Source: Clostridiales bacterium (GTDB taxonomy: Bacteria; Bacillota; Clostridia; Lachnospirales; Lachnospiraceae). From it: a stretch of DNA of 64,000 nt. Location of the stretch: NCBI GenBank assembly GCA_021203365.1, contig JAJQBI010000019.1:1-64000 (forward strand). Direction: 5' to 3'. Of the stretch, positions 9,708 to 55,163 are shown piece after piece (position 1 is the first letter of the stretch; each line of letters starts with the position of its first letter). Below the pieces are notes generated by a model. That model was not told the DNA's origin. It did no database searches and saw only the letters and a program-made list of their open reading frames with translations. Both the position numbers and the translations under genes were made by a program.

Positions 9708-9750
9708 GGTACGTCCCCTCTCAAACCGGGTCTCAGTATCCTTTCGCCCT

Positions 9751-9810
9751 GGTATCACAGAGCGCCCTGCGGGTGTCTGTGCTTTGCGCTCCCGGAATTC
9801 TCACCATCAT
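9751..9810 (-). repeat. Palindromic element copy J, partial
   Basis: On the minus strand it starts ATGATGGTGAGAATTCCGGG and continues with GAGCGCAAAGCACAG, then GTGATACCAGGGCGAAAGG. This matches the internal hairpin and outer end of copies B and G. It directly abuts copy A in the opposite orientation. Confidence 0.5.
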
Positions 9811-9813
9811 TAT

Positions 9814-10011
9814 ATGATTGAAGCGACAAAAGGTGTTTTGTCGCTATGATACACGGATTTCTCCGCACTTCGTGCTCCCGAAATCCTGACAACATTCGAA
9901 ATCCGCTCATTTTTCTGCGAAAAATGGCTACTTTCTCATGTTGTTCGGGACCCAATCTCATGAATGCTGATGCAAGCATCTGCATTCATGACCTTTTCTC
10001 CCTTGTATCAT
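9814..10011 (+). mobile_element. Palindromic element copy A, long form with direct repeats
   Basis: It opens with ATGATTGAAGCGACAAAAGG and its pairing arm TTTTGTCGC and closes with CCCTTGTATCAT. Inside are three further hairpins: GGATTTC/GAAATCC with tip GCAC-TTC-GTGC, CATTTTTC/GAAAAATG, and CTCATGAATGC/GCATTCATGA. CATTATATG at 9808-9816 and CATTATATA at 10009-10017 flank it as an 8-of-9 direct repeat, the mark of target duplication. The rest of 9708-10208 (a 500-bp gap) holds copy J and, near 10105, a TATAGT that could be the -10 of mnmM; no gene is seen. Confidence 0.7.
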
Positions 10012-10208
10012 TATATATCTGTTTGGAAAATTTCACAATGATTTCTTTATAACCGTACCGGAAAAATATACGAATTGCCGGACTTTCCTCCGGTCTCCTT
10101 CTGTGTTATAGTAATATCTGTCATAAGTATACAGGAGTTACCCTCACAGACATTCCGATGTGACTTCAGGAATCCCGCAGGTTCTCAAAGACAAAGGAGC
10201 TGAAAAAT

Positions 10209-10796
10209 ATGAGAAAATTACAGATCACAAACTGGTGTCACGAGATGATACGCTCTCAGGTTCCCAAAGGCGGCCTGTACGTGGATGCCACCATGGGCAA
10301 TGGAAATGACACGTTTTTTCTGTGTGAAATGGCCGGATCCGGCGGAAAGGTCCTGGCCTTTGATATTCAGCCGCCGGCCCTGGAGGCCACCAGGACGCTG
10401 CTTAAAACGCATAACCTGACAGATAAGGCCGAACTGGTCCTGGACAGCCATGAAAACATGGACCATTACCTGGACGCTGAAACCGCCGATGCCGTCTGTT
10501 TTAATTTCGGCTATCTCCCCGGCGGGGATCACCGGATCTGCACCCGGCCAGAGACAAGCCTCCTTGCCGTTCGGAAAAGCCTGACAATCCTGAAAAAGGG
10601 CGGCCTGCTCAGCCTTTGCATTTACAGCGGCGGGGATACCGGTTTCCAGGAAAAGGAAGCGCTCCTTGATTTTCTGAAAACGCTTCCCTCCCGGAAATAT
10701 ACTGTAATCGCAAATGAGTACCTGAATCGGGGAAATCACCCTCCGATTCCCGTCTTTGTGTGGAAGGAATCCGATCTGCCGGACCCCCTCATTTAA
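10209..10796 (+). CDS. mnmM: tRNA U34 mnm5s2U methyltransferase-type protein (YtqB/MnmM family)
   Basis: This 195-residue class I SAM methyltransferase has the motif VDATMGNGNDTFFL that marks the YtqB/MnmM family, then VLAFDIQPPAL and FNFGYLPGGDH. MnmM makes the last methyl transfer in mnm5s2U34 synthesis in Gram-positive bacteria. AAAGGAGCTGAAAAAT precedes the ATG. It is a single plus-strand gene and overlaps the 3' end of the convergent GH78 gene by 8 bp. Length is normal for the family. Confidence 0.88.
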   Translation: MRKLQITNWCHEMIRSQVPKGGLYVDATMGNGNDTFFLCEMAGSGGKVLAFDIQPPALEATRTLLKTHNLTDKAELVLDSHENMDHYLDAETADAVCFNFGYLPGGDHRICTRPETSLLAVRKSLTILKKGGLLSLCIYSGGDTGFQEKEALLDFLKTLPSRKYTVIANEYLNRGNHPPIPVFVWKESDLPDPLI

Positions 10797-12732
10797 CCTT
10801 AATAAGCGGCGTTCCGTCTCCCCGGAATCCGCCCTCCCGGCTGGCCGTTACCGAAAGTTTTTCATGCTTATACAAAATTCGCACCTCTCCATCCTTCACC
10901 GGAACCACACAGTCCAGCTCATGGAAAAATTCCGTCCGCGGCTCCGCCTCGAAGGTCTCATAGCCGGGAGTCAAGGGCCTCACGCCCAGGAAATATCTCC
11001 CCAGAAGATAAATCGGGCTGGCGCCCCAGGCATGACAAAGGCTCTTTCCATAAGGGTCGGAATACATACTGTATTGCTCCTCCGCCTTTCTTTTGGGGTC
11101 AAATTCTTCCCAGAACGTGACAGCACCCGCGTCCACCATACTTCCCCAGTATTCCTGGATGCTGTCCATCAGCCGGTCCAGATGCCCGGTTTTTCCCCAG
11201 ACATCCAGCTCGAAAAATTTAAAGTAGGGCGTGGTAATCTGTGGAACCTCCGGATTCAGGAGTACATGCTCCAGAATCTGTTCTTTTTGTTTTTCCGTGA
11301 CAAGGTCAAAGAGAATGGCAAAAATATTGGCGTGTCTGGACACATGGTTTCGCCCGGATTCATAGCAGTCTATAAAAGCGCCCTTTTCTTCCTTCCAGAA
11401 ATACCGCAGCACCGCGGCCTTCAGACGGGCAAAGGTTTCCCTGTACCCGGAAACCTCCTTTCCGATCAGATCCCCGCAAAAAGCCATCGTCTCGTAGCAT
11501 TTCAGCAAAAGGATCTGCTCCGCGCATACTGCTCCGTCCTTATCGATATCCGCCCAGTCCACAAAAATCCAGTCCTGGGGCCTGCCCAGGAGAAAACCAG
11601 TCTCATTGCGCTGGCTCTCCAGAAGCTGCATCATCCCTTCCATCTTCGGATAAATCATCTCCACGAACTCCCGGTCGCCGGTGATCCAGTATTCCTTCTC
11701 AATGCTGATCAGCCAAAGCATGGAATAATCCACAATGGTATTGATGTGCTGTACAATCTTCTCATTCCCCCGAAGTGCCAGAATGGTTCGCTTGTCGATC
11801 TCTTCATCAAAAAACAGATAGGGATTTACAAAATAGCTCTGGTAGGCGTCCCCGGACCAGATCCACCGGTCCCTCTTGATTCCGTCGATAAAAAAAAGCC
11901 CGCTGCAAAGCTCATAAGACTCCGCCGCCACATGCCAGATCTTCTCCAGCCGGGCATTGTCACAGTAAAACTCCGCCCTGGTCTCAATGGGAATGTATGT
12001 GTGCACACCCTCACAGGAAATCTCTCCCGGCTCACATTCCGGAAGATAGATATACCGGAACGCCCGGCGGCGAAGAAGAGTGTAGGGACCCACATTCTCC
12101 TGTTTATAATAACACCAGTCCAGGTCCAGAGCCTCCTGATCGGACTCTCCGTAGGCCACTGTCACCGTCCGCCTTGGATTTTGAAAGGTCAGGTTCAGGG
12201 TTCCGTTGATCATGCGTCCGAAGTCAAACAGCACGCCCCCGTTCACCGCTCTCTCAGAAACGGGAAGATGCCGGGTCTGCTCATAATAAATCTTGTTTGG
12301 ATTTTTCCCTTTTTCCGTATAAAGGGAAGAAACTCCCACCGGGTGCGCCTCTGTGAAATCATCGGCCATCCACTGCCGGTCAGAGCGGATAACCTCACCT
12401 TCAACATAAACACAGGGCAGTCCTGTCATATTTCCAATGAAGATCTCCACAGCGCAGGTTCCGGCCTCACAGGGAATCCTCTGCCCCAGGGGATATTTTT
12501 TCCCGTTCACGGACACATAGCCCACTCCCTGCCCGGTTACCTGAAACTCCGTCGGTTTTTCCAGCTCATAAGTGCGAAAAAACCGCACATTTTTTCTCCA
12601 GTCGTCCATTTTCCAGTAGGCTGGCCATCCATAGCCTCTCTCCTCCCGCTGGAAATTCTGCAGCATTCCGTGATAAATCTCAAAATCTCCCGGATACCAG
12701 ATCCATACCGGGCATTTTCTGTCTTCTCTCAT
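10789..12732 (-). CDS. Glycoside hydrolase family 78-like protein (alpha-L-rhamnosidase type)
   Basis: The 647-residue product has N-terminal beta-rich regions and a catalytic (alpha/alpha)6 part with DGIKRDRWIWSGDAYQSYF, the GH78 catalytic segment, and a C-terminal beta domain. No signal peptide is seen, so it would act on imported oligosaccharides in the cytoplasm. GAGGGAGTGGAAGC precedes the ATG at 12732. It is the last gene of the leftward block after rseP, 102 bp downstream, and unrelated to it in function. The product may be a rhamnosidase or another exo-glycosidase of the clan. Confidence 0.8.
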   Translation of the reverse strand: MREDRKCPVWIWYPGDFEIYHGMLQNFQREERGYGWPAYWKMDDWRKNVRFFRTYELEKPTEFQVTGQGVGYVSVNGKKYPLGQRIPCEAGTCAVEIFIGNMTGLPCVYVEGEVIRSDRQWMADDFTEAHPVGVSSLYTEKGKNPNKIYYEQTRHLPVSERAVNGGVLFDFGRMINGTLNLTFQNPRRTVTVAYGESDQEALDLDWCYYKQENVGPYTLLRRRAFRYIYLPECEPGEISCEGVHTYIPIETRAEFYCDNARLEKIWHVAAESYELCSGLFFIDGIKRDRWIWSGDAYQSYFVNPYLFFDEEIDKRTILALRGNEKIVQHINTIVDYSMLWLISIEKEYWITGDREFVEMIYPKMEGMMQLLESQRNETGFLLGRPQDWIFVDWADIDKDGAVCAEQILLLKCYETMAFCGDLIGKEVSGYRETFARLKAAVLRYFWKEEKGAFIDCYESGRNHVSRHANIFAILFDLVTEKQKEQILEHVLLNPEVPQITTPYFKFFELDVWGKTGHLDRLMDSIQEYWGSMVDAGAVTFWEEFDPKRKAEEQYSMYSDPYGKSLCHAWGASPIYLLGRYFLGVRPLTPGYETFEAEPRTEFFHELDCVVPVKDGEVRILYKHEKLSVTASREGGFRGDGTPLIKVK

Positions 12733-12834
12733 GCTTCCACTCCCTCATCTCTTCCGTTGCATCCCAGAATATCCGGCCGAATCCCTGTATGAATGGGAGG
12801 GTGCAGCTACACGCCCTCCCTTTTTCGACCTCTG

Positions 12835-14121
12835 TCAGAAAATTTTCAGAATATCATTATACATAATCACAACCATCAGCACCATCAAAAGCATCAGTCC
12901 GGCAAAGTGTATGGTTCCCTCCACCTGACGGTTGACGGGTTTCCTTCGAACGACTTCCAGCAGCAGAAACACCAGCCTTCCGCCGTCCAGAGCCGGAATG
13001 GGAAGAAGATTCATCACACCCAGGTTCGCAGAAAGGAGAACCGCCATATTCAGCATGTTCATCAGCACCATCAGGGCACCTTCACTTTTGCTCGCCTCGT
13101 AAGTCTCACTGATGGCATCCACCACACCCACCGGTCCGCTCATGTCACTTACGCCAAGATCCCCCGTAACCAGCTCCTTCAGGCTTAAAAGAGTGGTACG
13201 GATCATATATTTCACCTCTATCGCTCCATAGCGAATCACATTCAGTCCGCTGGTCTTTACACAGCCGGTGTTGTAGGAAAAACCGGAGGAGATTGTGGAA
13301 TACTCCGCAGGTGTCAGCGTCGCCTCATAGGTCAGCCCGTCTCTCTCATAGGTGATCGTAACCGGCTCATCCGAGAGAGGATTTTCCTCTATATATGCGT
13401 CATAGGCCTCCCCATCCGGGATGTCCACCCCATCAATGGAGGTAATCACATCCCCCGCCTGTACCCCGCACTCCTCCAGCGGCATGCCCTCAATCAGGGA
13501 GGCCACCTCCATGGAACTGGAATCCGTCCGGTTAAATCCCAGCAGATACCGGACCGACACATCAGGCACATAGGAAATCTCAAGAGTCTCCCCATCCCGC
13601 CGGACCTTCAGATTTATGGTGTCCCCCTGGGAGATTTCGTTCAGGTAGGAATACACGTAAAGATCCTTCCCCAGGTCAATGGAATATCCCTGATACTCAG
13701 TAATTATATCTCCTTCCTGCAGCCCGGCTTCCTCCGCCGCAGAACCTTCCGTAACCTGAAGCACCGCGGCCGGCTCATACCCCACCACAGCTACAATAAT
13801 AGTCGCCAGAAGAAAGGCAAGGATAAAGTTAAAAACCGGCCCGGCAGCCACAACCGCAATTCTTCCCAGAACCGAAGCGGAGTTAAAGGTTCCCGGCCGT
13901 TCATCCTCCAGGTCCTCCCCCAGCATGGCACAGGAGCCGCCAAGGGGCAAAAGCTTCCAGGAATACCGGGTTCCGCCGATCTCCTTACTTAAGAGTCTCG
14001 GACCCATTCCAAGAGAAAACTCCGTCACCACAATGCCGTTCTTCTTCGCCAGAAGGAAATGCCCCAGCTCGTGAAACAGAATCACCGCACTGAAAATGAG
14101 GATTGCTATAAGAATACTCAA
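12835..14121 (-). CDS. rseP: Membrane zinc metalloprotease RseP/RasP (site-2 protease)
   Basis: HELGH near residue 15 (zinc ligands and catalytic Glu) and NLLPIPALDGGR near the end (third ligand Asp) identify the intramembrane site-2 protease. Two PDZ-like regions lie between, with several membrane helices. I take TTG at 14121, one base after the dxr stop, with AGGTGG just ahead, giving SILIAILIFSAVILF as first helix; a longer TTG frame to 14139 has no ribosome site. It cleaves anti-sigma factors and signal peptides in the membrane. The dxr-rseP order is standard in Firmicutes. Confidence 0.95.
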   Translation of the reverse strand: MSILIAILIFSAVILFHELGHFLLAKKNGIVVTEFSLGMGPRLLSKEIGGTRYSWKLLPLGGSCAMLGEDLEDERPGTFNSASVLGRIAVVAAGPVFNFILAFLLATIIVAVVGYEPAAVLQVTEGSAAEEAGLQEGDIITEYQGYSIDLGKDLYVYSYLNEISQGDTINLKVRRDGETLEISYVPDVSVRYLLGFNRTDSSSMEVASLIEGMPLEECGVQAGDVITSIDGVDIPDGEAYDAYIEENPLSDEPVTITYERDGLTYEATLTPAEYSTISSGFSYNTGCVKTSGLNVIRYGAIEVKYMIRTTLLSLKELVTGDLGVSDMSGPVGVVDAISETYEASKSEGALMVLMNMLNMAVLLSANLGVMNLLPIPALDGGRLVFLLLEVVRRKPVNRQVEGTIHFAGLMLLMVLMVVIMYNDILKIF

Positions 14122-14122
14122 T

Positions 14123-15298
14123 CTACCACCTGCTTTCAATCCATTGATGAGTTTCTCTTTCCACCGCCAGGATCTCCGAAAGATCCGGTTCCTCCTTTAC
14201 CCTGTGTCTCTCCATCACCCCGCCGATTATCTCATAAATATCCAGAAATCCTATCTTTTTCTGAAGGAATTTCTTTACGGCCGCCTCATTGGCCGCGTTA
14301 AACACAGTAGGCATCGTGCCTCCCATCCGGGAAGCCTCAATCGCCATGGGCAGCCCCAGAAAGGTCTCCATATCCGGTTCCTCAAAGGTAATCTGCTTCA
14401 GGCTCCCGAAATCCAGCCGTTCTCCTTCCAGATATCTGCGCTCCGGATAATATAGAGCGTACTGAATGGGCAGACGCATATCCGGTGTGCCCAGCTGAGC
14501 CAGAATAGCGCCGTCCTCAAATTCCACCATGGAGTGGATGATGCTCTGAGGCTGCACCACCACCTGAATATGCTCCAGATCCATGCCAAAAAGCCACCGC
14601 GCCTCCATAACCTCCAGGCCCTTATTTACAAGAGTGGCTGAATCCACCGTAATCTTCTGCCCCATAACCCAGTTTGGATGTTTCAATGTATCTTCCACCG
14701 TAACGTGGGCCAGGTCCTCCTTTTTTCTCCCACGAAAAGGACCTCCGGAGGCGGTGATCAGAAGCTTGTGGACCTGTCTTTGATTTGCGGTTGTATACAG
14801 GGAATCACTGCCCCTGGGTTCTCCGTGAATGGCCTGAAAAATCGCGCTGTGCTCACTGTCCACCGGAAGGATCTGTACTCCGCATTCCCGGGCCAGCGGC
14901 ATAATCAGATGTCCGGCTGTCACAAGAGTTTCCTTATTGGCAAGGGCAATGTCCTTCCCCGTCCGGATCGCCTCCATGGTGGGACGAATCCCGATCATCC
15001 CCACAATAGCGGTTACCAGTATCTCCGGGCCTTCCATCCCGGCCAGGGCAAGGAGTCCGTCCATCCCGCCGACCACCCGGGTATCCGTATCCCGGATCCG
15101 TACGGCAAAATCTCTCGCAGCCGCCTCATCTCCCACAGCCGCAAGGCGGGGATGAAACTCCCTCACCTGTGCCTCCAGCTTTTCCGTATTTCTGCCCGCA
15201 CTGACTCCAAGAACCCGGATATCCCCGTTTCTTCGAACCACATCCAGAGTCTGCGTGCCAATAGAACCTGTGGAACCTAATATGGCAATATTTTTCAT
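14123..15298 (-). CDS. dxr: 1-deoxy-D-xylulose-5-phosphate reductoisomerase
   Basis: This 391-residue enzyme turns DXP into methylerythritol phosphate with NADPH, the committed step of the MEP isoprenoid pathway. GSTGSIGTQTLDVVRRN is the NADPH loop, ILPVDSEHSAIFQ carries the metal-binding Asp and Glu, and ASGGPFRGR the substrate loop. CAGGAGTGAGAATAGA precedes the ATG. It sits between cdsA and rseP, and uppS nearby uses products of the same pathway. Confidence 0.98.
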   Translation of the reverse strand: MKNIAILGSTGSIGTQTLDVVRRNGDIRVLGVSAGRNTEKLEAQVREFHPRLAAVGDEAAARDFAVRIRDTDTRVVGGMDGLLALAGMEGPEILVTAIVGMIGIRPTMEAIRTGKDIALANKETLVTAGHLIMPLARECGVQILPVDSEHSAIFQAIHGEPRGSDSLYTTANQRQVHKLLITASGGPFRGRKKEDLAHVTVEDTLKHPNWVMGQKITVDSATLVNKGLEVMEARWLFGMDLEHIQVVVQPQSIIHSMVEFEDGAILAQLGTPDMRLPIQYALYYPERRYLEGERLDFGSLKQITFEEPDMETFLGLPMAIEASRMGGTMPTVFNAANEAAVKKFLQKKIGFLDIYEIIGGVMERHRVKEEPDLSEILAVERETHQWIESRW

Positions 15299-15347
15299 TC
15301 TATTCTCACTCCTGCGTTTTATCGCCTGGATCCTGCGGGAGACAGAA

Positions 15348-16142
15348 TCAGAGGCTCAGTACAAGCTTCGCCAGATAATAAATGACCGGTGCGGTGATAA
15401 TCACACTGTCAAAGCGGTCCAGAATCCCTCCGTGCCCCGGGATCAGCTTTCCATAATCCTTAATCCCCTGGTTTCTCTTAATGGCGGAGGCCGCCAGATC
15501 CCCAACCATGGAAATCAGCGCGCCCACTGCGCAGATCGCCATATATTCCGCCGCGGGACCTTTCGTCGCGGCCGCGTAAATCCCGCCCAGAAGACCGGCA
15601 CCCACGACGCCGCCCACCGCTCCCTCCACAGATTTCTTCGGACTTAAAACCGGCGCCATCTTGTGCTTCCCGATAAGCATCCCCACACAGTAGGCACAGG
15701 TGTCGCATCCCCAGGAGCAGAGGAAAATCAGCCATACAAGAAACTGCCCGCCGGAAAGATTTCTTGTGAGATAAATAAAGGACAGCATCACCGCCACATA
15801 AACCACCCCGAAGAAGGCGGACATTACCTGATGCGCTTCATATTTCGGATATCCAAAAACATAGATAAACAGAAGCAGGATCAGAGCAAGAATCAGAGCC
15901 ATCATCCCGTATTCCTCAAAATTTATCCTCACAGCCGTATAATAAAGCACTGCACCCAGATAGCCTGCAAGCTCCGGTGCTGTAAAGGAATCCTCCCGAA
16001 CTTTCATAGCCTTATAAAGCTCCTGCATTCCAATCACGGATACACAAAGTAAAGTAAAAAACAGAACCCATCCCCCGCAGAGTATGGTGGCAAGAGCCAC
16101 AGCCACCAGCAGAATTCCGCTTATAAGCCTGGTCTTAAACAT
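15348..16142 (-). CDS. cdsA: Phosphatidate cytidylyltransferase
   Basis: The 264-residue polytopic membrane protein ends with the CDP-diglyceride synthase signature (SAIKRNQGIKDYGKLIPGHG followed by GILDRFDS) and has about seven membrane helices. It makes CDP-diacylglycerol from phosphatidate and CTP for phospholipid synthesis. The start overlaps the end of uppS by 22 bp with AAGGAGGAGCAGGA in front, so the two are translationally coupled. Confidence 0.97.
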   Translation of the reverse strand: MFKTRLISGILLVAVALATILCGGWVLFFTLLCVSVIGMQELYKAMKVREDSFTAPELAGYLGAVLYYTAVRINFEEYGMMALILALILLLFIYVFGYPKYEAHQVMSAFFGVVYVAVMLSFIYLTRNLSGGQFLVWLIFLCSWGCDTCAYCVGMLIGKHKMAPVLSPKKSVEGAVGGVVGAGLLGGIYAAATKGPAAEYMAICAVGALISMVGDLAASAIKRNQGIKDYGKLIPGHGGILDRFDSVIITAPVIYYLAKLVLSL

Positions 16143-16852
16143 TCCTGCTCCTCCTTTACGGCCCCGTATCTCCGATCTCTCTCATTATATTTCTCAATCG
16201 CCCGGGTCAGCTCTGCCTTATCAAACTCAGGCCAGGGCACATCGGTAAAATAGAACTCCGAGTAGGCCAGCTGCCAGAGAAGGAAATTGGACAGCCTCTG
16301 CTCCCCGCTTGTGCGGATCAGCAGATCCGGATCCGGAATTCCGGCTGTGTCAAGATACCCTTCCACCACGGCCTCATCAATATCCTCGGGTCTGTGCTTC
16401 CCATCGGCCACATCCTGCGCCAGACGGCGAACACCTCTGGTAATCTCGTCTCTGCCGCCATAGTTCAGCGCCAGCTGAAAATAAATCCGGGTAAAATCTT
16501 TGGAATACTCCTCCACCCTCGCCACACTCTTCTGAATATCCTCCGGAAAAGCGCGAATATCTCCGATCACCTTCAGACGCATCTGATTTTTCTCACAGAT
16601 TTTCATACACCTTTTCAGATAGGTGCGAAACAGGGTCATCAGACCCTCAATTTCATCCCTGGACCGTTTCCAGTTCTCTGTGGAAAAGGCATAAACCGTC
16701 AGATATTTCACTCCCAGGTCACGGATCACATAACAGATACTCTCCAGATTGGCACAGCCCCGGACATGCCCATAGCTTCTCGGCATTCCCTTCGCCCTGG
16801 CCCAGCGGCCGTTTCCGTCAAGTATAATGGCAATATGATTGGGTACGTTCAT
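16121..16852 (-). CDS. uppS: Isoprenyl (undecaprenyl) diphosphate synthase
   Basis: The 243-residue product has the cis-prenyltransferase opening HIAIILDGNGRWARAKG, with the catalytic Asp, and the later LLIRTSGEQRLSNFLLWQLA and WPEFDK motifs. It condenses isopentenyl units into the lipid carrier for cell-wall synthesis. AAGGAGTAAA precedes the ATG. A terminator-like hairpin lies between frr and this gene (16871-16900), so its expression may be only partly linked to frr. Confidence 0.97.
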   Translation of the reverse strand: MNVPNHIAIILDGNGRWARAKGMPRSYGHVRGCANLESICYVIRDLGVKYLTVYAFSTENWKRSRDEIEGLMTLFRTYLKRCMKICEKNQMRLKVIGDIRAFPEDIQKSVARVEEYSKDFTRIYFQLALNYGGRDEITRGVRRLAQDVADGKHRPEDIDEAVVEGYLDTAGIPDPDLLIRTSGEQRLSNFLLWQLAYSEFYFTDVPWPEFDKAELTRAIEKYNERDRRYGAVKEEQECLRPGL

Positions 16853-16870
16853 TTTACTCCTTTCCGTGTG

Positions 16871-16900
16871 AAAAGAGAGCTCCGCAGCCGAAGCTCTCTC
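16871..16900 (-). terminator. Intergenic terminator between frr and uppS
   Basis: GAGAGAGCT pairs with AGCTCTCT and is followed by TTTTC on the minus strand. It is 12 bp beyond the frr stop and only 19 bp before the uppS start, so it probably attenuates rather than fully ends transcription. Confidence 0.6.
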
Positions 16901-16911
16901 CCGGTTTATGT

Positions 16912-17463
16912 TTATACTGTAAGAATCTCCTTGTTCTTCGCCTCTACCACAGCGTCTACCTTCCGGATATATTTGTCCGTCAGCTTCTGAATTTCATCAC
17001 CAAGATCCTTGATCTCATCCTCAGAGACATCCTGTTTGGCAAGCTTCTTAAACGCATCGTTGGCATCCCTGCGGATATTGCGCATGGCGACCTTGGCGCC
17101 TTCACCTTTCTTTTTTACATCCTTCACCAGTTCCTTCCTGCGCTCTTCCGTAAGCTCCGGAAAAACAAGGCGGATGCTCTTGCCGTCGTTATTGGGGTTC
17201 AATCCCAGATCCGAAGTGAGGATTGCCTTCTCAATGGCTTTGACCATCTTGGGCTCCCATGGCTGAATCTGAATCATCCTCGCCTCCGGGACCGTAACGT
17301 TGGCCACCTGCTGAATCGGTGTAGGACTTCCGTAGTAATCCACTCTCAGCTTATCAAGGATGTGGGGATTGGCGCGTCCGGCGCGGATCGTCTGCAGCTC
17401 CCCTTCCAGGGCGGCCAGCGACTTGCTCATTTTTGAATCGTAGATCTGAATTCTTTCATCCAT
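16912..17463 (-). CDS. frr: Ribosome recycling factor
   Basis: The 183-residue length and sequence (LQTIRAGRANPHILDKLRVD, GKSIRLVFPELTEERRKELV) are standard for RRF, which splits post-termination ribosomes with EF-G. GAGAGGGAGAAAGACAA precedes the ATG. It follows pyrH as in most bacteria, but the gap is widened to about 250 bp by palindromic element copy B. Confidence 0.98.
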   Translation of the reverse strand: MDERIQIYDSKMSKSLAALEGELQTIRAGRANPHILDKLRVDYYGSPTPIQQVANVTVPEARMIQIQPWEPKMVKAIEKAILTSDLGLNPNNDGKSIRLVFPELTEERRKELVKDVKKKGEGAKVAMRNIRRDANDAFKKLAKQDVSEDEIKDLGDEIQKLTDKYIRKVDAVVEAKNKEILTV

Positions 17464-17488
17464 TTGTCTTTCTCCCTCTCTGGTTATT

Positions 17489-17698
17489 ATGATGTTGGGG
17501 TCAAAAGTATTTGACCCCTATGATACCTGAGAATTCCTCCGTGCTTCGCACTCCCGGAATTCTCAAAAACATTCGGAATCCGCTCATTTTGGCTAATATA
17601 TTAGCCAAAATGGCTACTTCCTCATGTTTTGGGCGGGTCAAGATGTCATGAATTGGAACATAAATGTTCCATTCATGACCTTTTGACCCTGGTATCAT
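17489..17698 (+). mobile_element. Palindromic element copy B, long form
   Basis: Outer ends ATGATGTTGGGGTCAAAAG and CTTTTGACCCTGGTATCAT are inverted repeats. Internal hairpins are GAGAATTCC/GGAATTCTC with tip GTGC-TTC-GCAC, CATTTTGGCTAAT/ATTAGCCAAAATG, and TCATGAAT-GGAACAT/ATGTTCC-ATTCATGA. It has the same plan as copy A but different, co-varying arm bases. It fills the pyrH-frr gap. Flanking direct repeats are not clear here. Confidence 0.65.
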
Positions 17699-17709
17699 CT
17701 TATTATTTT

Positions 17710-18411
17710 TCATCCGGCGACAGTCACCCTCGTACCGGAAAAATTACCGTGCACTGCGTTGACAATACTGTTCTCTTCCTCCAGGGCAAACACCAGCATG
17801 GGCATCCGCTGTTCCATACACATGATGGACGCGGTCAGGTCCATGGCGGCCAGCTTCCTGTCCACCACTTCCTCAATGGAAATCCGGTCAAATTTCACCG
17901 CCTCCGGGTTCAGCTTCGGATCACTGTCATAGATTCCGTCTACCGCCTTCGCCAGAAGAATGGCTTCCGCCTGAATTTCCACCGCGCGAAGCACCGTAGC
18001 CGTATCCGTGGAAAAATACGGATGTCCGGTTCCCCCCGCAAAGAACAGAAGCTTCCCCTGGGCAAAGCCTTCCTCCACCCGGTCCTTGGAATACAGAGTG
18101 GTGAAAGATCCACAGGCAAAGGGAGTGAAAATCTCCGTCTTCATTCCCACGTATCTGCACAGCTCTGATACATAAATGCAGTTCATCACCGTAGCCAGCA
18201 TACCGATCTGATCCGCCTTATTCCGGTCAATGGTCTCGCTGGTACGTCCCCGCCAGAAATTCCCCCCTCCGATTACGATTCCAACCTGAAGGCCTTCCTC
18301 TGTAACCGTCCGGATCTGTTCCGCCACGCGCAGAACCGTAGCCTCGTCAAATCCGGTCTTCTTCTCACCCGCAAGGGCTTCTCCGCTTAATTTCAGCAAA
18401 ACTCTTCTCAT
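17710..18411 (-). CDS. pyrH: UMP kinase
   Basis: The 233-residue product has the amino-acid kinase opening RRVLLKLSGEALAG, GIVIGGGNFWRGR and a late DGIYDSDPKLNPEA. It phosphorylates UMP in pyrimidine synthesis and is hexameric and allosteric in the family. GAGGAGAACAGACAG precedes the ATG. It lies 27 bp downstream of the lipoprotein gene. Confidence 0.97.
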   Translation of the reverse strand: MRRVLLKLSGEALAGEKKTGFDEATVLRVAEQIRTVTEEGLQVGIVIGGGNFWRGRTSETIDRNKADQIGMLATVMNCIYVSELCRYVGMKTEIFTPFACGSFTTLYSKDRVEEGFAQGKLLFFAGGTGHPYFSTDTATVLRAVEIQAEAILLAKAVDGIYDSDPKLNPEAVKFDRISIEEVVDRKLAAMDLTASIMCMEQRMPMLVFALEEENSIVNAVHGNFSGTRVTVAG

Positions 18412-31029: not shown

Positions 31030-31067
31030 ATGATTGAAGCGACAAAAAGTATTTTGTCGCTATGATA
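31030..31067 (+). repeat. Palindromic element copy D, short form
   Basis: ATGATTGAAGCGACAAAAAG with arm TTTTGTCGC and then TATGATA: the left end of a long copy (as in A) without the remainder. It is 28 bp upstream of leuB, immediately after the yajC terminator. Confidence 0.6.
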
Positions 31068-44158: not shown

Positions 44159-44194
44159 ATGATGTTGGGGCAAAAGCATTTGACCCTGTATCAT
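44159..44194 (+). repeat. Palindromic element copy E, short form
   Basis: ATGATGTTGGGGCAAAAGC joined to ATTTGACCCTGTATCAT: two ends with nothing between. Arms GGGGCAAA/TTTGACCC have one mismatch. Confidence 0.6.
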
Positions 44195-46060: not shown

Positions 46061-46072
46061 GTATTCCTTACC

Positions 46073-47437: not shown

Positions 47438-47554
47438 TATGTTCGTCTCCTTTCTTTCTTACAGTCATTCGATAAAAAGTCCCTCCTCATCGTCCCTCTT
47501 TTGAATAGGTTTTTTCAAAACCATACTGCAGCATACCGCAACATTATCATTATT

Positions 47555-47657
47555 ATAATGTTGCGACAAAAAGTATTTTGTCGCTATAATACCAGGGCCC
47601 AATCTCATGAATGCAGATGCAAGCATCTGCATTCATGGCCTTTTGTCCCTTGTATCT
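47555..47657 (+). repeat. Palindromic element copy F, medium form
   Basis: ATAATGTTGCGACAAAAAGT/TTTTGTCGC hairpin, then CTCATGAATGCAGATGC/GCATCTGCATTCATG, ending CCTTTTGTCCCTTGTATC. It lacks the two middle hairpins of copies A and B. It lies between the aminotransferase and citrate synthase genes (47438-47701). Confidence 0.6.
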
Positions 47658-47701
47658 TTCATTATAACATTTTTTTTCTTTCTGGTCTATATGGGAAAAA
47701 A

Positions 47702-48928
47702 TCAGGCTTCCCATTTCTGCCTGTAGGTTGCCAGGAAATCCCCAAGGCTCCTGGCCGCCTGTTCAAGCTGTGAAATCTCCGGCAGATAAACCACCCGGAA
47801 ATGATCCGGTTCCTGCCAGTTGAATCCCTTGCCGGGTACCAGAAGCACCTGCTTCTCATGAAGAAAATCCAGAGCAAACTGTTCATCATCCCGGATGTGA
47901 AACCTTTTGGTATCAATCTTCGGAAAAATATAAAAGGCGGCTCTTGGTTTCACCGCGGTGATGCCCGGTATGTCTGTCAGAGCCTTATAGATATAGTTCC
48001 TCTGTTCGTACACACGGCCGCCGGGCCGGACATACTCTCCCGAAGCCTGCGCCCCTTTGAGGGCGGTCCGGACAATGGCCTGTGCGGGAACATTAGAGCA
48101 GAGCCGCATGGAAGAAAGCATGTTCAGTCCCTCTATATAACCCCGGGCACGCTCCTTCGGACCGCTTAACACCATCCACCCGATGCGGAAGCCCGCAATC
48201 ATGTGAGATTTGGACAGGCCTGAAAACGTAACGCAGAACACATCCGGTGCCAGGGAGGCAATGGAAGTGTGCACACAGTCATCCATAACCAGGCGGTCGT
48301 AAATCTCATCTGAAAAAAGAATCAGCTCATGCTCCCTGGCCAGATCCGCAATCTGTGAGAGAATTTCCCGGGGATAAACCGCACCGGTGGGGTTATTGGG
48401 ATTGATAATGACAATGGCCTTCGTCCGGTCTGTAATCTTGCGCCGGATATCCTCCACGTCCGGATACCAGTCCGCTTCTTCGTCACATATATAGTGTACC
48501 GCCTTCCCTCCCGCCAGGGTTGCCGTCGCGGTCCAGAGGGGATAATCCGGGGCCGGGATCAGAATCTCATCCCCGTTGTTCAGAAGCGCCTGCATACAGA
48601 GATTGATCAGCTCGCTGACCCCGTTTCCCGTATAGACATCGTTGACCGTGACACCGGAAATTCCAAGGGATGCGGCATATTCCGCGATCGCCTCCCTTGC
48701 GGAGCCAATCCCCCGGGAATCCGAATAGCCCTGGGAAACCTGCACGTTGTCCAGCATTTCCCGGATCACTTCCTCCGGCGCGGCAAAGCCAAAGGGATAG
48801 GGATTTCCGATGTTCAGCTTCAGAATCTCTTTCCCTTCCTCCTCCATCCGGCCGGCCTCGTCCACCACCGGACCCCGCACATCGTAAAGCACGTTGTCCA
48901 GCTTTGACGACTTCTCAAATGTTCTCAT
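47702..48928 (-). CDS. PLP-dependent class I/II aminotransferase
   Basis: The 408-residue protein has LNIGNPYPFGFAAPEEVI near the start, ILIPAPDYPLWTATATLAGG and the PLP-lysine region TFSGLSKSHMIAGFRIGW. It resembles the AlaA/AspB-like enzymes that make alanine or other amino acids from glutamate; the exact substrate is not fixed by sequence. AAAGAGGTGAGGATTC precedes the ATG. It is divergent from gdhA, 225 bp apart. Confidence 0.93.
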   Translation of the reverse strand: MRTFEKSSKLDNVLYDVRGPVVDEAGRMEEEGKEILKLNIGNPYPFGFAAPEEVIREMLDNVQVSQGYSDSRGIGSAREAIAEYAASLGISGVTVNDVYTGNGVSELINLCMQALLNNGDEILIPAPDYPLWTATATLAGGKAVHYICDEEADWYPDVEDIRRKITDRTKAIVIINPNNPTGAVYPREILSQIADLAREHELILFSDEIYDRLVMDDCVHTSIASLAPDVFCVTFSGLSKSHMIAGFRIGWMVLSGPKERARGYIEGLNMLSSMRLCSNVPAQAIVRTALKGAQASGEYVRPGGRVYEQRNYIYKALTDIPGITAVKPRAAFYIFPKIDTKRFHIRDDEQFALDFLHEKQVLLVPGKGFNWQEPDHFRVVYLPEISQLEQAARSLGDFLATYRQKWEA

Positions 48929-49078
48929 GTAGAATCCTCACCTCTTTAATACGCAAAATTGCCATGGACGTTTTCGTCACAGGGCATTTGATATATAATC
49001 TCACATTACGAAAAAATCCGCAACCCGAAAAATATAAAAAAATTTTTTCACGGTATTTTCTTTTCCTCCGGTTTCATG

Positions 49079-49084
49079 TATAAT
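49079..49084 (+). promoter_or_regulatory. -10 element of gdhA
   Basis: ATGTATAATAGCAG contains TATAAT 70 bp before gdhA. No good -35 is seen at 16-18 bp, so an activator may be needed. Confidence 0.5.
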
Positions 49085-49141
49085 AGCAGAGGATATCTGG
49101 CAAAGAAAAGCCAGACAGACATTTTGAGAAAGATTGGATGA

Positions 49142-50486
<1,345 letters not shown>

Positions 50487-50488
<2 letters not shown>

Positions 50489-50517
50489 GGCAAAGGCATT
50501 TGCCACTCTGGTATCAT
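50487..50517 (+). repeat. Palindromic element copy I, degraded
   Basis: GGCAAAGGCATTTGCC (perfect arms GGCAAA/TTTGCC) followed by ACTCTGGTATCAT, the standard right end. The left ATGAT is not recognisable; it overlaps the gdhA stop. Confidence 0.45.
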
Positions 50518-50522
50518 AAGAT

Positions 50523-50567
50523 AAAAATACCGCGGAGGATTTAAAACTACCCTCCGCGGTATTTTTT
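50523..50567. terminator. Terminator shared by gdhA and nrdR
   Basis: AAAATACCGCGGAGG and CCTCCGCGGTATTTT pair around 12 nt, followed by TT. The genes are convergent. Confidence 0.9.
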
Positions 50568-50569
50568 CG

Positions 50570-51034
50570 TCATCCCTGCTCAAGCTGGGGCATAAGCTTT
50601 TTCAGTTCGTCCATAAAGGTGCCCACATCCTTGAATTCCCGGTAAACGGAGGCAAACCGGACGTAAGCCACCGGGTCCAGACTTTTAAGGTGCACCATCA
50701 CAATTTCTCCGATGCGGCTGCTGCTGATCTCCCGATCCTCGGCACGAAATATTTCTCCCTCCACAGCATCAATCATTTCCTCGATTTTCTCTATGGATGT
50801 GGGACGTTTGTAGCAGGCCCGAAGAACGCCGTCCTGGATTTTGGAACGGTCATAGCGCTCCCGGTTCTGATCCTTCTTGATCACGGTCAGCGGAATCGTC
50901 TCCACCTTCTCATAGGTGGTAAACCGTTTTCCGCAGGAATCACAGAGGCGGCGCCGGCGTATGGAATTGGTATCCTCCACAGGTCTGGAATCCACAACCC
51001 GCGTATTATCCTGACTGCAATATGGACATCTCAT
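50570..51034 (-). CDS. nrdR: Transcriptional repressor NrdR
   Basis: The 154-residue protein has the zinc ribbon CPYCSQDNTRVVDSRP and RRRLCDSCGKRFTTYE, followed by an ATP-cone (KKDQNRERYDRSKIQDGVLR). It represses ribonucleotide reductase genes in response to nucleotides. AGGAGGATAAAAAAAGT precedes the ATG. Confidence 0.98.
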   Translation of the reverse strand: MRCPYCSQDNTRVVDSRPVEDTNSIRRRRLCDSCGKRFTTYEKVETIPLTVIKKDQNRERYDRSKIQDGVLRACYKRPTSIEKIEEMIDAVEGEIFRAEDREISSSRIGEIVMVHLKSLDPVAYVRFASVYREFKDVGTFMDELKKLMPQLEQG

Positions 51035-51238
51035 ACTTTTTTTATCCTCCTGAAATTCCTTATTTTCCCGTTAATTCCGGTATTTTCACATTTTTCCTGT
51101 CTGGTATCATAGTAGCCCCAGTTTTCCTCCCTGTCAAGAAAGAAAATGCTCTTTTGCCCTGAATTTTCGCCTGAAACAGAGCAGGACAAAATACATTTCC
51201 GCCGCTTCCGGCATAAATTAAAGAAAAACGGGAAATCT

Positions 51239-51514
51239 ATGCGTATCTGTGATCTGAAGCAGAAGGAAGTCATCAATATCTGCAGCTGTAAAAGCCTGGG
51301 CTGTCCCATAGACGTGGATTTCTGCCGGGAGACCGGAAGGATCGCCTCTATCATCCTTCCCGGCCCGGGAAGATTTTTCGGACTGCTGGGGCGGGAGAGC
51401 GAATTTGTGATTCCCTGGGAGTGTATCCGCCAGATCGGGGACGACATCATCCTGGCCGAAATCCGGGAGGAAGAATGTCTGCGAAAATCCCCCGCACCGT
51501 GGAAGGAATCCTGA
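51239..51514 (+). CDS. YlmC/YmxH-family PRC-barrel-like sporulation protein
   Basis: The start MRICDLKQKEVINICSCKSL fits the family. The 91-residue protein has the small beta-barrel layout (IDVDFCRETGRIASIILPGP, FVIPWECIRQIGDDIILAEI) of YlmC/YmxH. Its ribosome site is weak (AACGGGAAATCT). It lies upstream of sigG on the same strand, consistent with a sporulation role. The function of the family is not established. Confidence 0.8.
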   Translation: MRICDLKQKEVINICSCKSLGCPIDVDFCRETGRIASIILPGPGRFFGLLGRESEFVIPWECIRQIGDDIILAEIREEECLRKSPAPWKES

Positions 51515-51651
51515 GATGGCCTTTCTGGTTTGTCAAGGGCTTTTATTTTTTATATTTTTCCGAAAAAAGTATATTTATCCTCCCGGGTGAGAATCATTTT
51601 ACTACCGGCACGTTTCAGAAAACGCGGCGGCAGTAAAGGAGGATTCTTAAG

Positions 51652-52431
51652 ATGGCACTTAACAAAGTTGAAATTTGCGGAGTCAACACATCGAAGCTTC
51701 CGATTTTGAAAGCCGAAGAAAAAGAAGAGCTTTTTCGCAGAATCAGGGAAGGAGACGAAGAAGCCCGGGAACTCTACATCAAAGGCAACCTGCGCCTGGT
51801 TCTGTGTGTAATCCGGCGTTTTTCCAATACCGGCGAGAATATGGACGATCTTTTCCAGATCGGCTGTATCGGCCTGATCAAAGCCATTGACAATTTTGAC
51901 ACCTCACTGAACGTAAAGTTTTCCACCTACGCCGTTCCCATGATCATCGGGGAAATCCGGCGTTATCTGCGAGACAACAACTCTATCCGGGTCAGCCGCT
52001 CACTGCGGGATATCGCCTACAAGGCCATCTACGCCCGGGACAGCTATATCAAACAGCATCTGAGAGAGCCCACCATCGCGGAGATATCCAGTGAGATCGG
52101 CATTGACCGGGAAATGATCGTCTACGCCATGGACGCGGTGCAGAGTCCGGTGAGCCTGTTCGAGCCTGTATACACAGAGGGCGGGGATACCCTCTATGTC
52201 ATGGATCAGATCAGTGACAAAAAGAATAAAGAGGAACGATGGATTGAGAATCTGTCTCTCCAGGACGCCATGAACCGCCTGAACGAGCGGGAGCGCCGGA
52301 TCATCGAGCTTCGCTTTTACGAGGGAAAGACACAGATGGAAGCGGCCCGGGAGATCGGTATCTCCCAGGCCCAGGTCAGCCGTCTGGAAAAAAACGCGCT
52401 GAAATCCATGCGCAATTATCTCCAGTCGTAA
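51652..52431 (+). CDS. sigG: Sporulation sigma factor SigG
   Basis: The 259-residue sigma-70 factor has region 2 (LRLVLCVIRRFSNTGENMDD, LFQIGCIGLIKAIDNFD), region 3 and a region 4 HTH (TQMEAAREIGISQAQVSRLE). KVEICGVNTSKLPIL at the start is diagnostic for SigG, the late forespore factor. AAGGAGGATTCTTAAG precedes the ATG. It shows that the organism has the endospore program. The promoter was not resolved. Confidence 0.96.
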   Translation: MALNKVEICGVNTSKLPILKAEEKEELFRRIREGDEEARELYIKGNLRLVLCVIRRFSNTGENMDDLFQIGCIGLIKAIDNFDTSLNVKFSTYAVPMIIGEIRRYLRDNNSIRVSRSLRDIAYKAIYARDSYIKQHLREPTIAEISSEIGIDREMIVYAMDAVQSPVSLFEPVYTEGGDTLYVMDQISDKKNKEERWIENLSLQDAMNRLNERERRIIELRFYEGKTQMEAAREIGISQAQVSRLEKNALKSMRNYLQS

Positions 52432-52439
52432 AACAGATT

Positions 52440-53912
52440 CTACTTCAGCGCCTCCTCAATCCGCTCGATCACAATATTCAGCGCCTGAATCCGGGCGTAT
52501 TTCTTATCCACGGATTCCAGGATATACCAGGGAGCGAAGGTGGTGCTGGTTTTCTGCAGCATCTCATCCACCGCCTCTTCATAGACATCCCACTTCTCAC
52601 GGTTGCGCCAGTCTTCCTCTGTGATCTTCCAGCGCTTCTCCGGATTGTTCTGGCGTTCCGTGAATCTCTCCAGCTGGGTATCCTTGTCAATATGAACCCA
52701 GAACTTAATGATCACGGCGCCCCAGTCCGCCAGCTCCTTCTCAAATTCGTTCATCTCGTTGTAGGCCCTGCGCCAGTCATTTTCGCTGCAGAAGCCTTCC
52801 AGCCGCTCCACCATCACGCGTCCGTACCAGGTACGGTCAAAAATCGCGATGTGCCCATCCTTGGGAAGACGAGTCCAGAAACGCCACAGGTAATGCCGGG
52901 CCTTTTCATGGGGCTCCGGACTGGCGATGGGAAGCACCTCAAATCCCCTGGGGTCCAGAGCCCCGGCAATCCTCTTAATATTGCCGCCCTTGCCGGCCGC
53001 ATCCCAGCCCTCATAAGTGATAATCACCGGCACACGCTTCCGGTACAGGCGATTGTGAAGCGCGCCCAGCTTCGCCTGCAGCTGCTTCAGCTCGGTCTTA
53101 TAGGTTTCGTCATCCAGTGTCTTGCCTTCCAGACTGATGTCCGCAAGCCTGGGCATCGGCACCAGCGGGAAGACATTCTGCAGAATGGGGACGGAATGCG
53201 CTGTGTTCTGCATGCCCACCTCGATGTTGCTGATCAGAGTCTCCAGGACCTGAAGCTCCGCCCATTTCCGGTTCTTCGCATCAATAATATACCAGGGCGC
53301 CGTAGAGGAATTGGTGGAATTCAGATAGTTGTCAAAAACCTTCATATATTTTTTATACCGGTCGTTCTGCTGGAGATCATTCTCTGAAACTCTCCACTGG
53401 GTGTCCTCAGCCTCCAGAAGGATTTCCATCCTTTTCTTCTGCTCTTTTTTATCAATGTGCATGAAGAATTTAATTACAAGATATCCGTTATCGGTCAGCT
53501 GCCGCTCAAAACGGCGGATGCTGTTGATCCGGTTATCATAGGCTTCCCTTGAAAGCTGTCCGTTCATGACCTCCCTGCAGGTCTGCTCCATCCAGCCGCC
53601 GTCCAGAAAGGTAAATTTGCCGGCCTCCGGAATCTCCTTAAAAAAGCGATACAGGAAGGGCCTGCGCTTATCCTCCTCCGTAGGGGCAGACATGGTGGCC
53701 ACCTTAAAAAATCTGGGATCGATGTTCCGGATTACCTTTCCGATCATGCTCCCCTTTCCGGAAGCATCCCAGCCCTCAAAGAGAACCAGTACGGGAATCT
53801 TATGATTCTTGATCTCCATCTGAAGCTCGTAGAGACGCTTCCGCGCCGCTTCCAGTCTTTGTTTCATCGCATCCTTCTCCGGGGGATTGGCCGGTATCCA
53901 GTGTTTCAGCAT
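52440..53912 (-). CDS. pap: Two-domain PPK2-family polyphosphate kinase (polyP:AMP phosphotransferase type)
   Basis: The ATG at 53912 follows GAGGTGTCATT; a longer frame to 53936 lacks a site. The 490-residue protein is a tandem of PPK2 domains. The C-terminal one is complete (TYEGWDAAGKGGNIKRIAGA Walker A, IFDRTWYGRVMVERLEG). The N-terminal one keeps GWDASGKGSMIGKVIR but reads FLDGGWMEQTCREVMNG where FDRTWY is expected, so it may be structural only. Double-domain PPK2 enzymes phosphorylate AMP with polyphosphate. The gene symbol is by family. Confidence 0.88.
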   Translation of the reverse strand: MLKHWIPANPPEKDAMKQRLEAARKRLYELQMEIKNHKIPVLVLFEGWDASGKGSMIGKVIRNIDPRFFKVATMSAPTEEDKRRPFLYRFFKEIPEAGKFTFLDGGWMEQTCREVMNGQLSREAYDNRINSIRRFERQLTDNGYLVIKFFMHIDKKEQKKRMEILLEAEDTQWRVSENDLQQNDRYKKYMKVFDNYLNSTNSSTAPWYIIDAKNRKWAELQVLETLISNIEVGMQNTAHSVPILQNVFPLVPMPRLADISLEGKTLDDETYKTELKQLQAKLGALHNRLYRKRVPVIITYEGWDAAGKGGNIKRIAGALDPRGFEVLPIASPEPHEKARHYLWRFWTRLPKDGHIAIFDRTWYGRVMVERLEGFCSENDWRRAYNEMNEFEKELADWGAVIIKFWVHIDKDTQLERFTERQNNPEKRWKITEEDWRNREKWDVYEEAVDEMLQKTSTTFAPWYILESVDKKYARIQALNIVIERIEEALK

Positions 53913-54057
53913 AATGACACCTCTTTTCCTTTTCACAGATGATTCATTTCATTTCGCAGAAAATTTCAATATATTCTGAAATTTCTGTAATATAGAAAGT
54001 ATAGCACGATTTTCAGATAAATAAAAGGTGTTTTTGTGTTATATTTCACTTTCTTTC

Positions 54058-54086
54058 TTGACATCCTTCCGGAAATGTGGTAAGGT
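54058..54086 (+). promoter_or_regulatory. Promoter of the mntP riboswitch transcript
   Basis: TTGACA (54058-54063), 17 bp, TAAGGT (54081-54086), just upstream of the riboswitch. Confidence 0.65.
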
Positions 54087-54094
54087 TTCGAAAG

Positions 54095-54235
54095 TGTATT
54101 CCCATGAGGGAGTAGTAAGCATATGGCCGTGTGAATTCCAGAGCCTTTTCACCGCCATATGGAGCAAGTCAACATACTGACCAGGGCGGGAGTTCTCCAT
54201 GGTCTGGCTTGTTTTAAATTGCGAGACTCATGTAT
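54095..54235 (+). promoter_or_regulatory. yybP-ykoY type manganese riboswitch
   Basis: The aptamer core is recognisable as GAGGGAGTAGTAAGC near the start, with AAGTCAACATACTGACC and GGTCTGGCTTG later, all features of the manganese-sensing yybP-ykoY class. P1 can form between CATGAG (54103-54108) and CTCATG (54227-54232). The same CTCATG starts a perfect 12-bp hairpin (CTCATGTATAAC/GTTATACATGAG, 54227-54256), so ligand-bound and free states can exclude each other. The controlled gene is mntP. Assignment is by eye and by the downstream gene. Confidence 0.8.
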
Positions 54236-54261
54236 AACGGCTGAGTTATACATGAGATGTT

Positions 54262-54383
54262 GTCCGTGTTTAACTCATGTTATGATGCAGGGGATTTTGG
54301 GAGCACGAAGTGCGGAAAAATCCTGGTATCATAGCGACAAAATACCTTTTGTCGCTTCAATCATGTTATGCACGGGCTTTTTT
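54262..54383 (+). terminator. Riboswitch terminator interrupted in its loop by element G
   Basis: GTCCGTG (54262-54268) and TAAC pair with GTTA and CACGGGC (54365-54377), followed by six T. The 86-bp insertion lies in the loop. Without it the hairpin closes over a TCAT loop. Confidence 0.65.
54282..54364 (-). mobile_element. Palindromic element copy G, medium form with 9-bp direct repeats
   Basis: On the minus strand it reads ATGATTGAAGCGACAAAAGG/TTTTGTCGC, then TATGATACCAGG and the hairpin GGATTTTTCCGCAC-TTC-GTGC ... AAAATCC, ending CTGCATCAT. CATGTTATG occurs exactly at both ends (54276-54284 and 54362-54370). It is the only copy with perfect direct repeats, so it is probably the youngest. 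Orientation is opposite to mntP. Confidence 0.75.
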
Positions 54384-54489
54384 CATGTCGAGGACGGACG
54401 CGCAGGACCGGTTCCGGGATGATTCGTAAGGTCCGTGGGAAGCTTTTTTTCCTCACAACCCTCTACATAAGAAAGGAATCAAACGAATT

Positions 54490-55077
54490 ATGAGCTGGCA
54501 GTTTCTCTTTGTAATCAACAGTGTTTTTCTTGGCGTCGGCCTGGCAATGGACGCGTTCTCCGTATCCGTGGCCAATGGACTGCATGATCCCGGAATGAAA
54601 AAAAACAAAATGCTGAAAATCGCCGGAACCTTTTCCCTTTTTCAGTTCCTCATGCCCATGATCGGATGGGTATGTGTACACACGATTGTAAAACAGTTTC
54701 AGGTATTCGAAAAATTCATCCCCTGGATCGCCCTGTTCCTTCTCGTCTACATCGGCGGAAAAATGATTTATGAGGCCGTCTGTCCGGACCCGGAAGAGGA
54801 AGATGAAAATTCTCTGGATTCCGGGGCTCTTTTCCTGCAGGGGGTAGCCACCTCCATCGACGCGCTTTCCGTAGGCTTCACCATCTCCGACTATGACTGG
54901 GTTCTGGCCACAGTCTGTTCCCTGATCGTGGCCGCGGTCACCCTCTGTCTCTGTATTGCGGGTGTAAACATCGGAGAAAAATTTGGCAATCGTTTCTCCG
55001 GCAGGGCGGAGATCGCCGGCGGAGTGATCCTGATCCTCATCGGACTGGAGATCTTCGTGCAGGGAGTATTTTTATAA
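54490..55077 (+). CDS. mntP: Manganese efflux pump MntP
   Basis: The 195-residue membrane protein has six predicted helices and the two pseudo-repeat motifs GLAMDAFSVSVANGL and GVATSIDALSVGFTISD, whose Asp residues are needed for Mn2+ export in the family. GAAAGGAATC lies 13 bp before the ATG. Expression is expected to rise with Mn2+ through the upstream riboswitch. The gap 53913-54489 (577 bp) holds the promoter, riboswitch, terminator and element G. Confidence 0.95.
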   Translation: MSWQFLFVINSVFLGVGLAMDAFSVSVANGLHDPGMKKNKMLKIAGTFSLFQFLMPMIGWVCVHTIVKQFQVFEKFIPWIALFLLVYIGGKMIYEAVCPDPEEEDENSLDSGALFLQGVATSIDALSVGFTISDYDWVLATVCSLIVAAVTLCLCIAGVNIGEKFGNRFSGRAEIAGGVILILIGLEIFVQGVFL

Positions 55078-55088
55078 AGATACATTTT

Positions 55089-55126
55089 ATGATGGTGGGG
55101 TCAAAAGTATTTGACCCTGGTATCAT
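55089..55126 (+). mobile_element. Palindromic element copy H, short form with direct repeats
   Basis: ATGATGGTGGGGTCAAAAG joined to TATTTGACCCTGGTATCAT. CATTTTATG (55083-55091) and CATTTTATT (55124-55132) form an 8-of-9 flanking repeat. It lies between mntP and the ttcA-like gene. Confidence 0.65.
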
Positions 55127-55163
55127 TTTATTTTACTTACAGGGGAGGCATTGAGTCATTCAT

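Follow-up and report, generated by a model that had tools for sequence, protein, structure and literature searches.

The 64,000-nucleotide stretch analysed here (Clostridiales bacterium, Lachnospiraceae; GCA_021203365.1, contig JAJQBI010000019.1, positions 1 to 64,000; the window) holds a series of related palindromic elements between its genes, which raises the question of what these elements are, how they came to their places and what the longer ones carry. The elements are very probably miniature inverted-repeat transposable elements (MITEs) moved by an IS1182-like transposase, the full-length ones carrying the Clostridiales-1 RNA (Rfam RF01699). The mobile nature of the elements is well supported, while we infer that this very transposase mobilises them and that the RNA has a role.

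The family is not confined to the window. The dispersed palindromes are real, and their density is far above chance. In the 3.13 Mb genome the terminal pattern ATGATNNNNGNGNCAAAA has 221 matches at up to one mismatch, while its reversed form has 5. A first version of the terminal pattern had the wrong spacing (24 matches against 12 in the control) and was replaced by this one. Pairs of inward-facing ends in the fetched stretches delimit elements whose lengths group at 38-40, about 99-108, 198, 210, 220, 232 and 240 bp, with a few other lengths. Two subfamilies can be told apart by eye: type I with the ends GATTGAAGCGACAAAA / GATACAAGGGACAAAA and lengths of 198, 220 and 240 bp, and type II with GATGTTGGGGTCAAAA / GATACCAGGGTCAAAA and lengths of 210 and 232 bp. 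Internal deletion probably gave rise to the short and medium copies. In a scan for one end of the ~220-bp element, the genome with the most pattern matches was G035, with 65 (for example L163, L164 and L165); L163 also matches the RNA model built in this analysis.

A sequence-only reading had listed ten copies in the window and held that all of them keep the terminal pattern. The family stands, but its uniformity was stated too strongly, because at up to two mismatches to the terminal 18-mer only five of the ten places have both ends (9814, 17489, 24150, 31030 and 55089), three have one (44159, 47555 and 54282), and 9751 and 50487 have none. The place at 9751 is not counted as a copy, and that at 50487 is, by eye, probably a decayed one. 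The description of short copies as the two ends joined does not fit 31030, which by eye corresponds to the hairpin at the end of a long type I element. The copies and the features belonging to them are as follows (strand given where assigned):

9809..9815: left 7-bp target duplication ATTATAT of copy A
9814..10011, minus strand (RNA strand): copy A, a 198-bp type I element, written ATGAT...ATCAT; the element proper, GAT...ATC, is 9816-10009
9847..10010, minus strand: RF01699 Clostridiales-1 RNA within copy A, 116.7 bits
10010..10016: right target duplication ATTATAT of copy A
17489..17698, minus strand: copy B, a 210-bp type II element without an exact target duplication
17521-17697: RF01699 within copy B, 110.3 bits
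24150..24189: 40-bp short copy without an exact duplication
31030..31067: apparent lone terminal hairpin of a type I element, 38 bp; by eye, its second end resembles the internal repeat
44159..44194: short copy of type II with one degenerate end
47556..47659: medium copy of about 104 bp with mutated ends, boundaries approximate
50482..50517: probable decayed copy with right end CTGGTATCAT, by eye, boundaries approximate; not found at two mismatches
54277..54283: left 7-bp target duplication ATGTTAT of copy H
54282..54364, plus strand: medium copy H; sub-threshold RF01699 match at 54214-54331 (33.3 bits, gathering score 48)
54363..54369: right target duplication ATGTTAT of copy H
55084..55090: left 7-bp target duplication ATTTTAT
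55089..55126: 38-bp short type II copy
55125..55131: right target duplication ATTTTAT

The interior of the long elements is a catalogued RNA. Copies A and B exceed the Rfam gathering score for RF01699, and the match in copy H lies below it. The model has 42 matches in the window genome, 35 of them above the gathering cut-off; the long copies span the whole model (1-166), the best with 128.9 bits. Among 64 genomes of the genus, 49 have at least one match and 43 have one above the cut-off, while 14 control genomes have none. The suggestion of a possible new family is therefore only half true: the long copies belong to an RNA family already described, and what is added is their MITE nature, seen in duplications, empty sites and autonomous elements that share the ends. 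Rfam labels RF01699 as Gene; sRNA, and the available passages of the paper describing it (Weinberg et al. 2010, PMC2864571) present it as a probable RNA that is 'probably not' cis-regulatory. Neither these passages nor the listings of the literature search contained a statement on its mobility, whereas in the elements described here the RNA core is wrapped in transposon ends. Some RF01699-like matches lie close together, apparently in tandem (L270, L281, L314, L331 and L153), and L282 looks tandem by eye.

Target duplications were scored at copies containing the RNA. After three duplicates were dropped from 133 oriented RNA matches in the window genome and others, 130 remained; no right end was found for 39, and 33 more failed an end-quality filter, which left 58 copies, 29 from the window genome (G000) and 29 from 13 other genomes. 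By requiring ends close to the consensus, the filter is biased towards AT at the outer dinucleotides, as are the shuffles; the places outside G000 came from a best-first list, and the sample leans to high scores. Exact 7-bp repeats with the consensus ATNNNAT flank 30 of the 58 (shuffles: mean 1.75, maximum 7) and exact 8-bp repeats, ATNNNNAT-like, flank another 6 (mean 0.14, maximum 2). Exact repeats of 4, 5 and 6 bp occur at two copies each, and those of 9-11 bp at none. A 3-bp duplication inside an AT-NNN-AT target (35/58; shuffles mean 3.86, maximum 11) had been considered, and was replaced by the 7-bp one after inspection of the non-consensus sites. The outer dinucleotides depart from AT in 34 copies, 8 of which have the same 7 bp on either side, and among copies with a matching 3-bp core the departures agree in 5 of 6 cases at the 5' side and in 4 of 9 at the 3' side. 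Since the sites that depart from AT point to the longer repeat, we treat all 7 bp, ATNNNAT, as the duplication and define the element proper as GAT...ATC. The direct repeats noticed earlier at 9814, 54282 and 55089 are real (ATTATAT, ATGTTAT and ATTTTAT); they are not 8-9 bp long, as first described, but 7 bp with chance or element bases added, and the consensus CATNNTAT(N) given for them is replaced by ATN(3-4)AT.

A comparison of filled sites with relatives was made by searching eleven joined-flank pieces in eleven genomes for uninterrupted sites. A clear empty site was obtained for three of them, two gave weaker matches and six had no clean answer. The clearest case is a 125-bp element of G037 (L202), for which two uninterrupted paralogues exist in G037 and two in G001; the alignments across the junction are 138/146, 136/146, 133/138 and 135/143, with similarity stopping about 30 bases past the junction, and the target ATATAAT is exact in one uninterrupted copy (L376) and one base off in the other three. 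This element (G037:C1:3034185) lies inside another multicopy sequence common to G037 (L367, L376) and G001 (L375, L386). A 70-bp element of G037 (L183), whose own repeats agree at 6 of 7 positions, is missing from the corresponding site in G058 (214/224), and a 206-bp RF01699 element of G058 (L268) is missing from G001, where the target is present once, beside an 8-nt indel (197/211). The weaker junction-spanning matches are L260 against G055 (169/231) and L341 against G040 (184/220), the latter with approximate boundaries and ends that are not of the GAT type.

A candidate partner was reached through the assembly itself. Nine contig ends of the draft window genome stop about 50 bases inside sequence with these ends, in two kinds, which hints at an insertion sequence (IS), since contigs would break in this way at a repeat too long for the assembler to span. 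A pattern taken from one contig end led to a Lachnospiraceae contig (L211) encoding a 533-aa transposase; its IS right end agrees with one contig-end kind, and the contig start agrees with the inner part of the other. The L211 transposase, the sole protein searched for Pfam domains, has DDE_Tnp_1_6, DUF772 and DDE_Tnp_1, the first two of which we take to be linked to the IS1182 family. Its best NCBIfam match is IS1182 (E 3.8e-36, 125 bits), as it is for each of seven relatives (91-136 bits), yet all eight scores lie below the equivalog cut-off of 270.

Seventeen IS loci were fetched, seven of them with both ends and both flanks; six of these elements are 1.82-1.90 kb long and one is internally deleted (1005 bp). 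Exact 7-bp duplications flank five of the seven (ATTGAAT, ATCTTAT, GTAAAAT, ATATTAT and ATAAAAT), GTAAAAT being a case in which a non-AT start is copied on both sides; of the remaining two, one has a 6/7 duplication and one, with decayed ends (L218), has none. Two more loci have both ends and one flank cut by the contig, at most one end was seen in the others, and L227 duplicates L214. The IS end in L215 is identical to the type II MITE end over 19 bases. A THF riboswitch (RF01831, 68.4 bits) is found at L228:2202-2312, adjoining an internally deleted IS copy. Candidates for the transposase, which had not been visible in the window, are present in other genomes in elements of 1.8-1.9 kb that encode IS1182-like DDE transposases of about 530 aa and share the terminal sequences.

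The partner group resembles the IS1182 family in its best NCBIfam match and, in L211, in its domains. According to PMC5678879, IS1272, a member of that family, targets stem-loops and replaces inverted repeats, leaving no duplication. The partner group differs from it in making 7-8 bp duplications at ATN(3-4)AT; the palindrome insertion or stem-loop replacement reported for some members of the family is not observed here, the target being ATNNNAT with a duplication.

The partner was also sought more widely. IS-end DNA was found in G000 only among 60 genus genomes, and in 397 genomes of the family the IS-end pattern occurs, besides G000, only in G193 and G386, whose five loci resemble, by eye, either RF01699-type or short elements (a transposase scan was not made there). 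Plasmids and phages gave no match to the IS ends; viral contigs gave none in part of the searches and three stretches in others. A search by end pairs at thirty loci of six genomes revealed no full IS, and an all-against-all comparison of open reading frames (ORFs) near the elements turned up no recognisable transposase, either in its 25 largest clusters or in the six sequences inspected.

The reading of these elements as MITEs, and with it the earlier suggestion of transposition into a preferred site, finds support in the duplicated targets, in the empty sites and in autonomous elements that share the ends. Like the bacterial MITEs, which include Correia, RUP and Nezha, they are short and multicopy, have terminal inverted repeats in common with an IS, are flanked by target duplications and contain no transposase gene; they differ in that their interior is a covarying RNA family present in many genomes. 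In the proposed mechanism, the DDE transposase of the 1.8-1.9 kb IS1182-like element would bind the ~18-bp inverted ends (GATNNNNGNGNCAAAA...) in trans and insert the element into AT-NNN-AT, or sometimes AT-NNNN-AT, duplicating those 7 or 8 bp. Full-length MITEs would carry the ~166-nt structured RNA in place of the transposase gene, the outer helices of the RNA using bases of the terminal repeat itself. It is our guess that the RNA makes insertions tolerable or useful when transcribed, and would be kept for that reason, the insertions being tolerated inside transcripts or used as leaders.

Several observations weigh against this reading. No exact 7- or 8-bp duplication is present at 22 of the 58 scored copies, 72 of the 130 RNA matches went unscored with an end missing or degenerate, and only three of the eleven joined-flank pieces gave a clear empty site. 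The transposase gene was not found at E<=1e-40 in G000, an assembly that is 83.7% complete, where the contig ends only hint at it. At the same threshold a relative is present in 10 of the 64 genus genomes, against 49 of 64 for RF01699, so that many copies have no visible partner. Finally, 13 IS loci contain no RF01699 match (E<=0.01), and the RNA is therefore not an obvious remnant of the IS.

A new RNA model with 32 pairs was built in this analysis; it misses the outer helices of the Rfam model. In an alignment of 110 matches from 100 loci, which was fitted to the model and so favours the pairing test, 31 of the 32 pairs change on both sides (21.6 in shuffles, s.d. 1.5) and pairing holds in 93.4% of pair cells (71.0 after shuffling, no more than 45.0 after sliding). 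The interior of the elements is not inert, and the evidence for its selection as RNA is mixed. It could have been kept only as DNA hairpins, through cruciforms or palindrome repair, an explanation that we consider possible though unlikely. Selection on the RNA strand should be separable from symmetric selection on DNA by comparing G-U with A-C cells. Over all 32 pairs in 57 non-redundant sequences G-U is rare and barely exceeds A-C (42 against 34 of 1712 cells), which is consistent with hairpins in DNA; in a subset picked afterwards, 23 positions that mostly pair well (helices 2, 4, 6 and 7 with half of helix 5), the counts are 26 against 4, which argues for RNA, and as the sequences are related the significance of this last comparison is not to be trusted. 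The minimum free energy is lower on the RNA strand than on its complement in 44 of 46 representatives, although the gap is small after correction by shuffling (30/46; mean z -8.44 against -7.51). In 25 diverse sequences, 15 of the columns that lie outside the predicted helices reach a conservation of 90% or more, although some of these columns may belong to the missed outer helices. The targeting of stem-loops by IS1272 lends the DNA explanation some further weight. A role of the RNA as a cis-acting leader at many sites, with selection for it at those sites, seems rather doubtful. Of 47 copies (51 less four without a neighbour on one side), 32 have the downstream gene on the same strand as the RNA (p 0.019), but the other 15 are opposed, insertion tolerance alone could bias the orientation, the genes were called by a crude ORF heuristic with 14 of the 51 copies overlapping a long ORF, and the 'probably not' of Weinberg et al. 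points the other way. In favour of a leader is one orthologous pair, L141 (G041) and L142 (G022), without a recognised right transposon end, in which 166 of 168 positions are identical and the two changes form one compensatory P1 pair; by comparison, the third codon positions of the following gene are 94.4% identical (Fisher p 0.018), and the upstream 200 nt agree at 185/201. In this pair RF01699 comes after a T-box-like leader and before an apparent ABC-transporter substrate-binding gene, the two being recognised by eye.

The same pair could be claimed for an ordinary small-RNA gene family that spread by duplication, the flanking repeats being part of the RNA gene. The Rfam type, the strong covariation and the 39 of 130 matches without a right end would agree with this, but the exact duplications of 7-8 bp, the empty sites and the autonomous elements that share these ends are marks of transposition, and a second orthologous pair (L343/L344) is no more conserved than its flanks (160/162 against 149/150 and 100/100); we regard such a gene family as improbable. 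REP/BIME-like palindromes moved by a Y1 (RAYT) enzyme, which the first reading had also considered, share the high copy number of short palindromic repeats with the present elements. REP/RAYT elements are not known to make a target duplication, whereas the elements here have inverted ends, 7-8 bp duplications and DDE-type, IS1182-like partner candidates, and this origin appears highly improbable, a Y1 gene not having been searched for. The MITE reading changes how the conservation, copy number and gene neighbourhood of RF01699 should be read, since an RNA family catalogued as an sRNA gene is mobile-element cargo in at least 36 of the 58 well-delimited copies, those with an exact duplication. 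It also offers a candidate partner transposase and a testable target rule, and raises the question of why, in many genomes, a passenger transposon should retain an RNA that covaries and has conserved unpaired bases.

The same RNA core is also found in a second wrapping. Sixteen matches in G045, G056, G052 and G059, picked from 19 pattern matches, have the RF01699 core with other ends (L302, L303, L304, L394-L402, L318, L328, L329 and L336). By eye, the left end TTTTACTATG is exact in seven of the sixteen and variant in the others, one of which is cut by a contig end, and the right hairpin GATGTCTGC...GCAGACATNTCC is present in 14 (10 exact, 4 with one change), the flanks diverging beyond it. 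No inverted repeat was seen by eye in these termini (the TTTTACTATG-like left end and the GATGTCTGC...GCAGACATGTCC right hairpin). Some of the copies are in tandem, and L397 and L304 have in common a different 3' part. If both wrappings are mobile, the RNA core and not the ends would be the conserved unit. One may then speculate that the Clostridiales-1 RNA is itself the selected unit, spreading inside transposon ends of at least two unrelated kinds, one IS1182-like (GATNNNNGNGNCAAAA, with a 7-bp duplication) and one possibly IS200/IS605-like, and sometimes retained as a leader RNA, with no right end recognised, at orthologous positions; we offer this tentatively, as a possibility short of likely.

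Copy B occupies the spacer between two genes of the window:

16912-17463, minus strand: RRF gene (frr)
17710-18411, minus strand: AA_kinase gene, taken as pyrH

With the element this spacer measures 249 nt, compared with 26-186 nt in 29 relatives fetched of 59 matching. Elsewhere in the window, a sub-threshold match to the L31-Firmicutes ribosomal protein leader lies at 51149-51181 on the minus strand (26.3 bits, cut-off 33.3).

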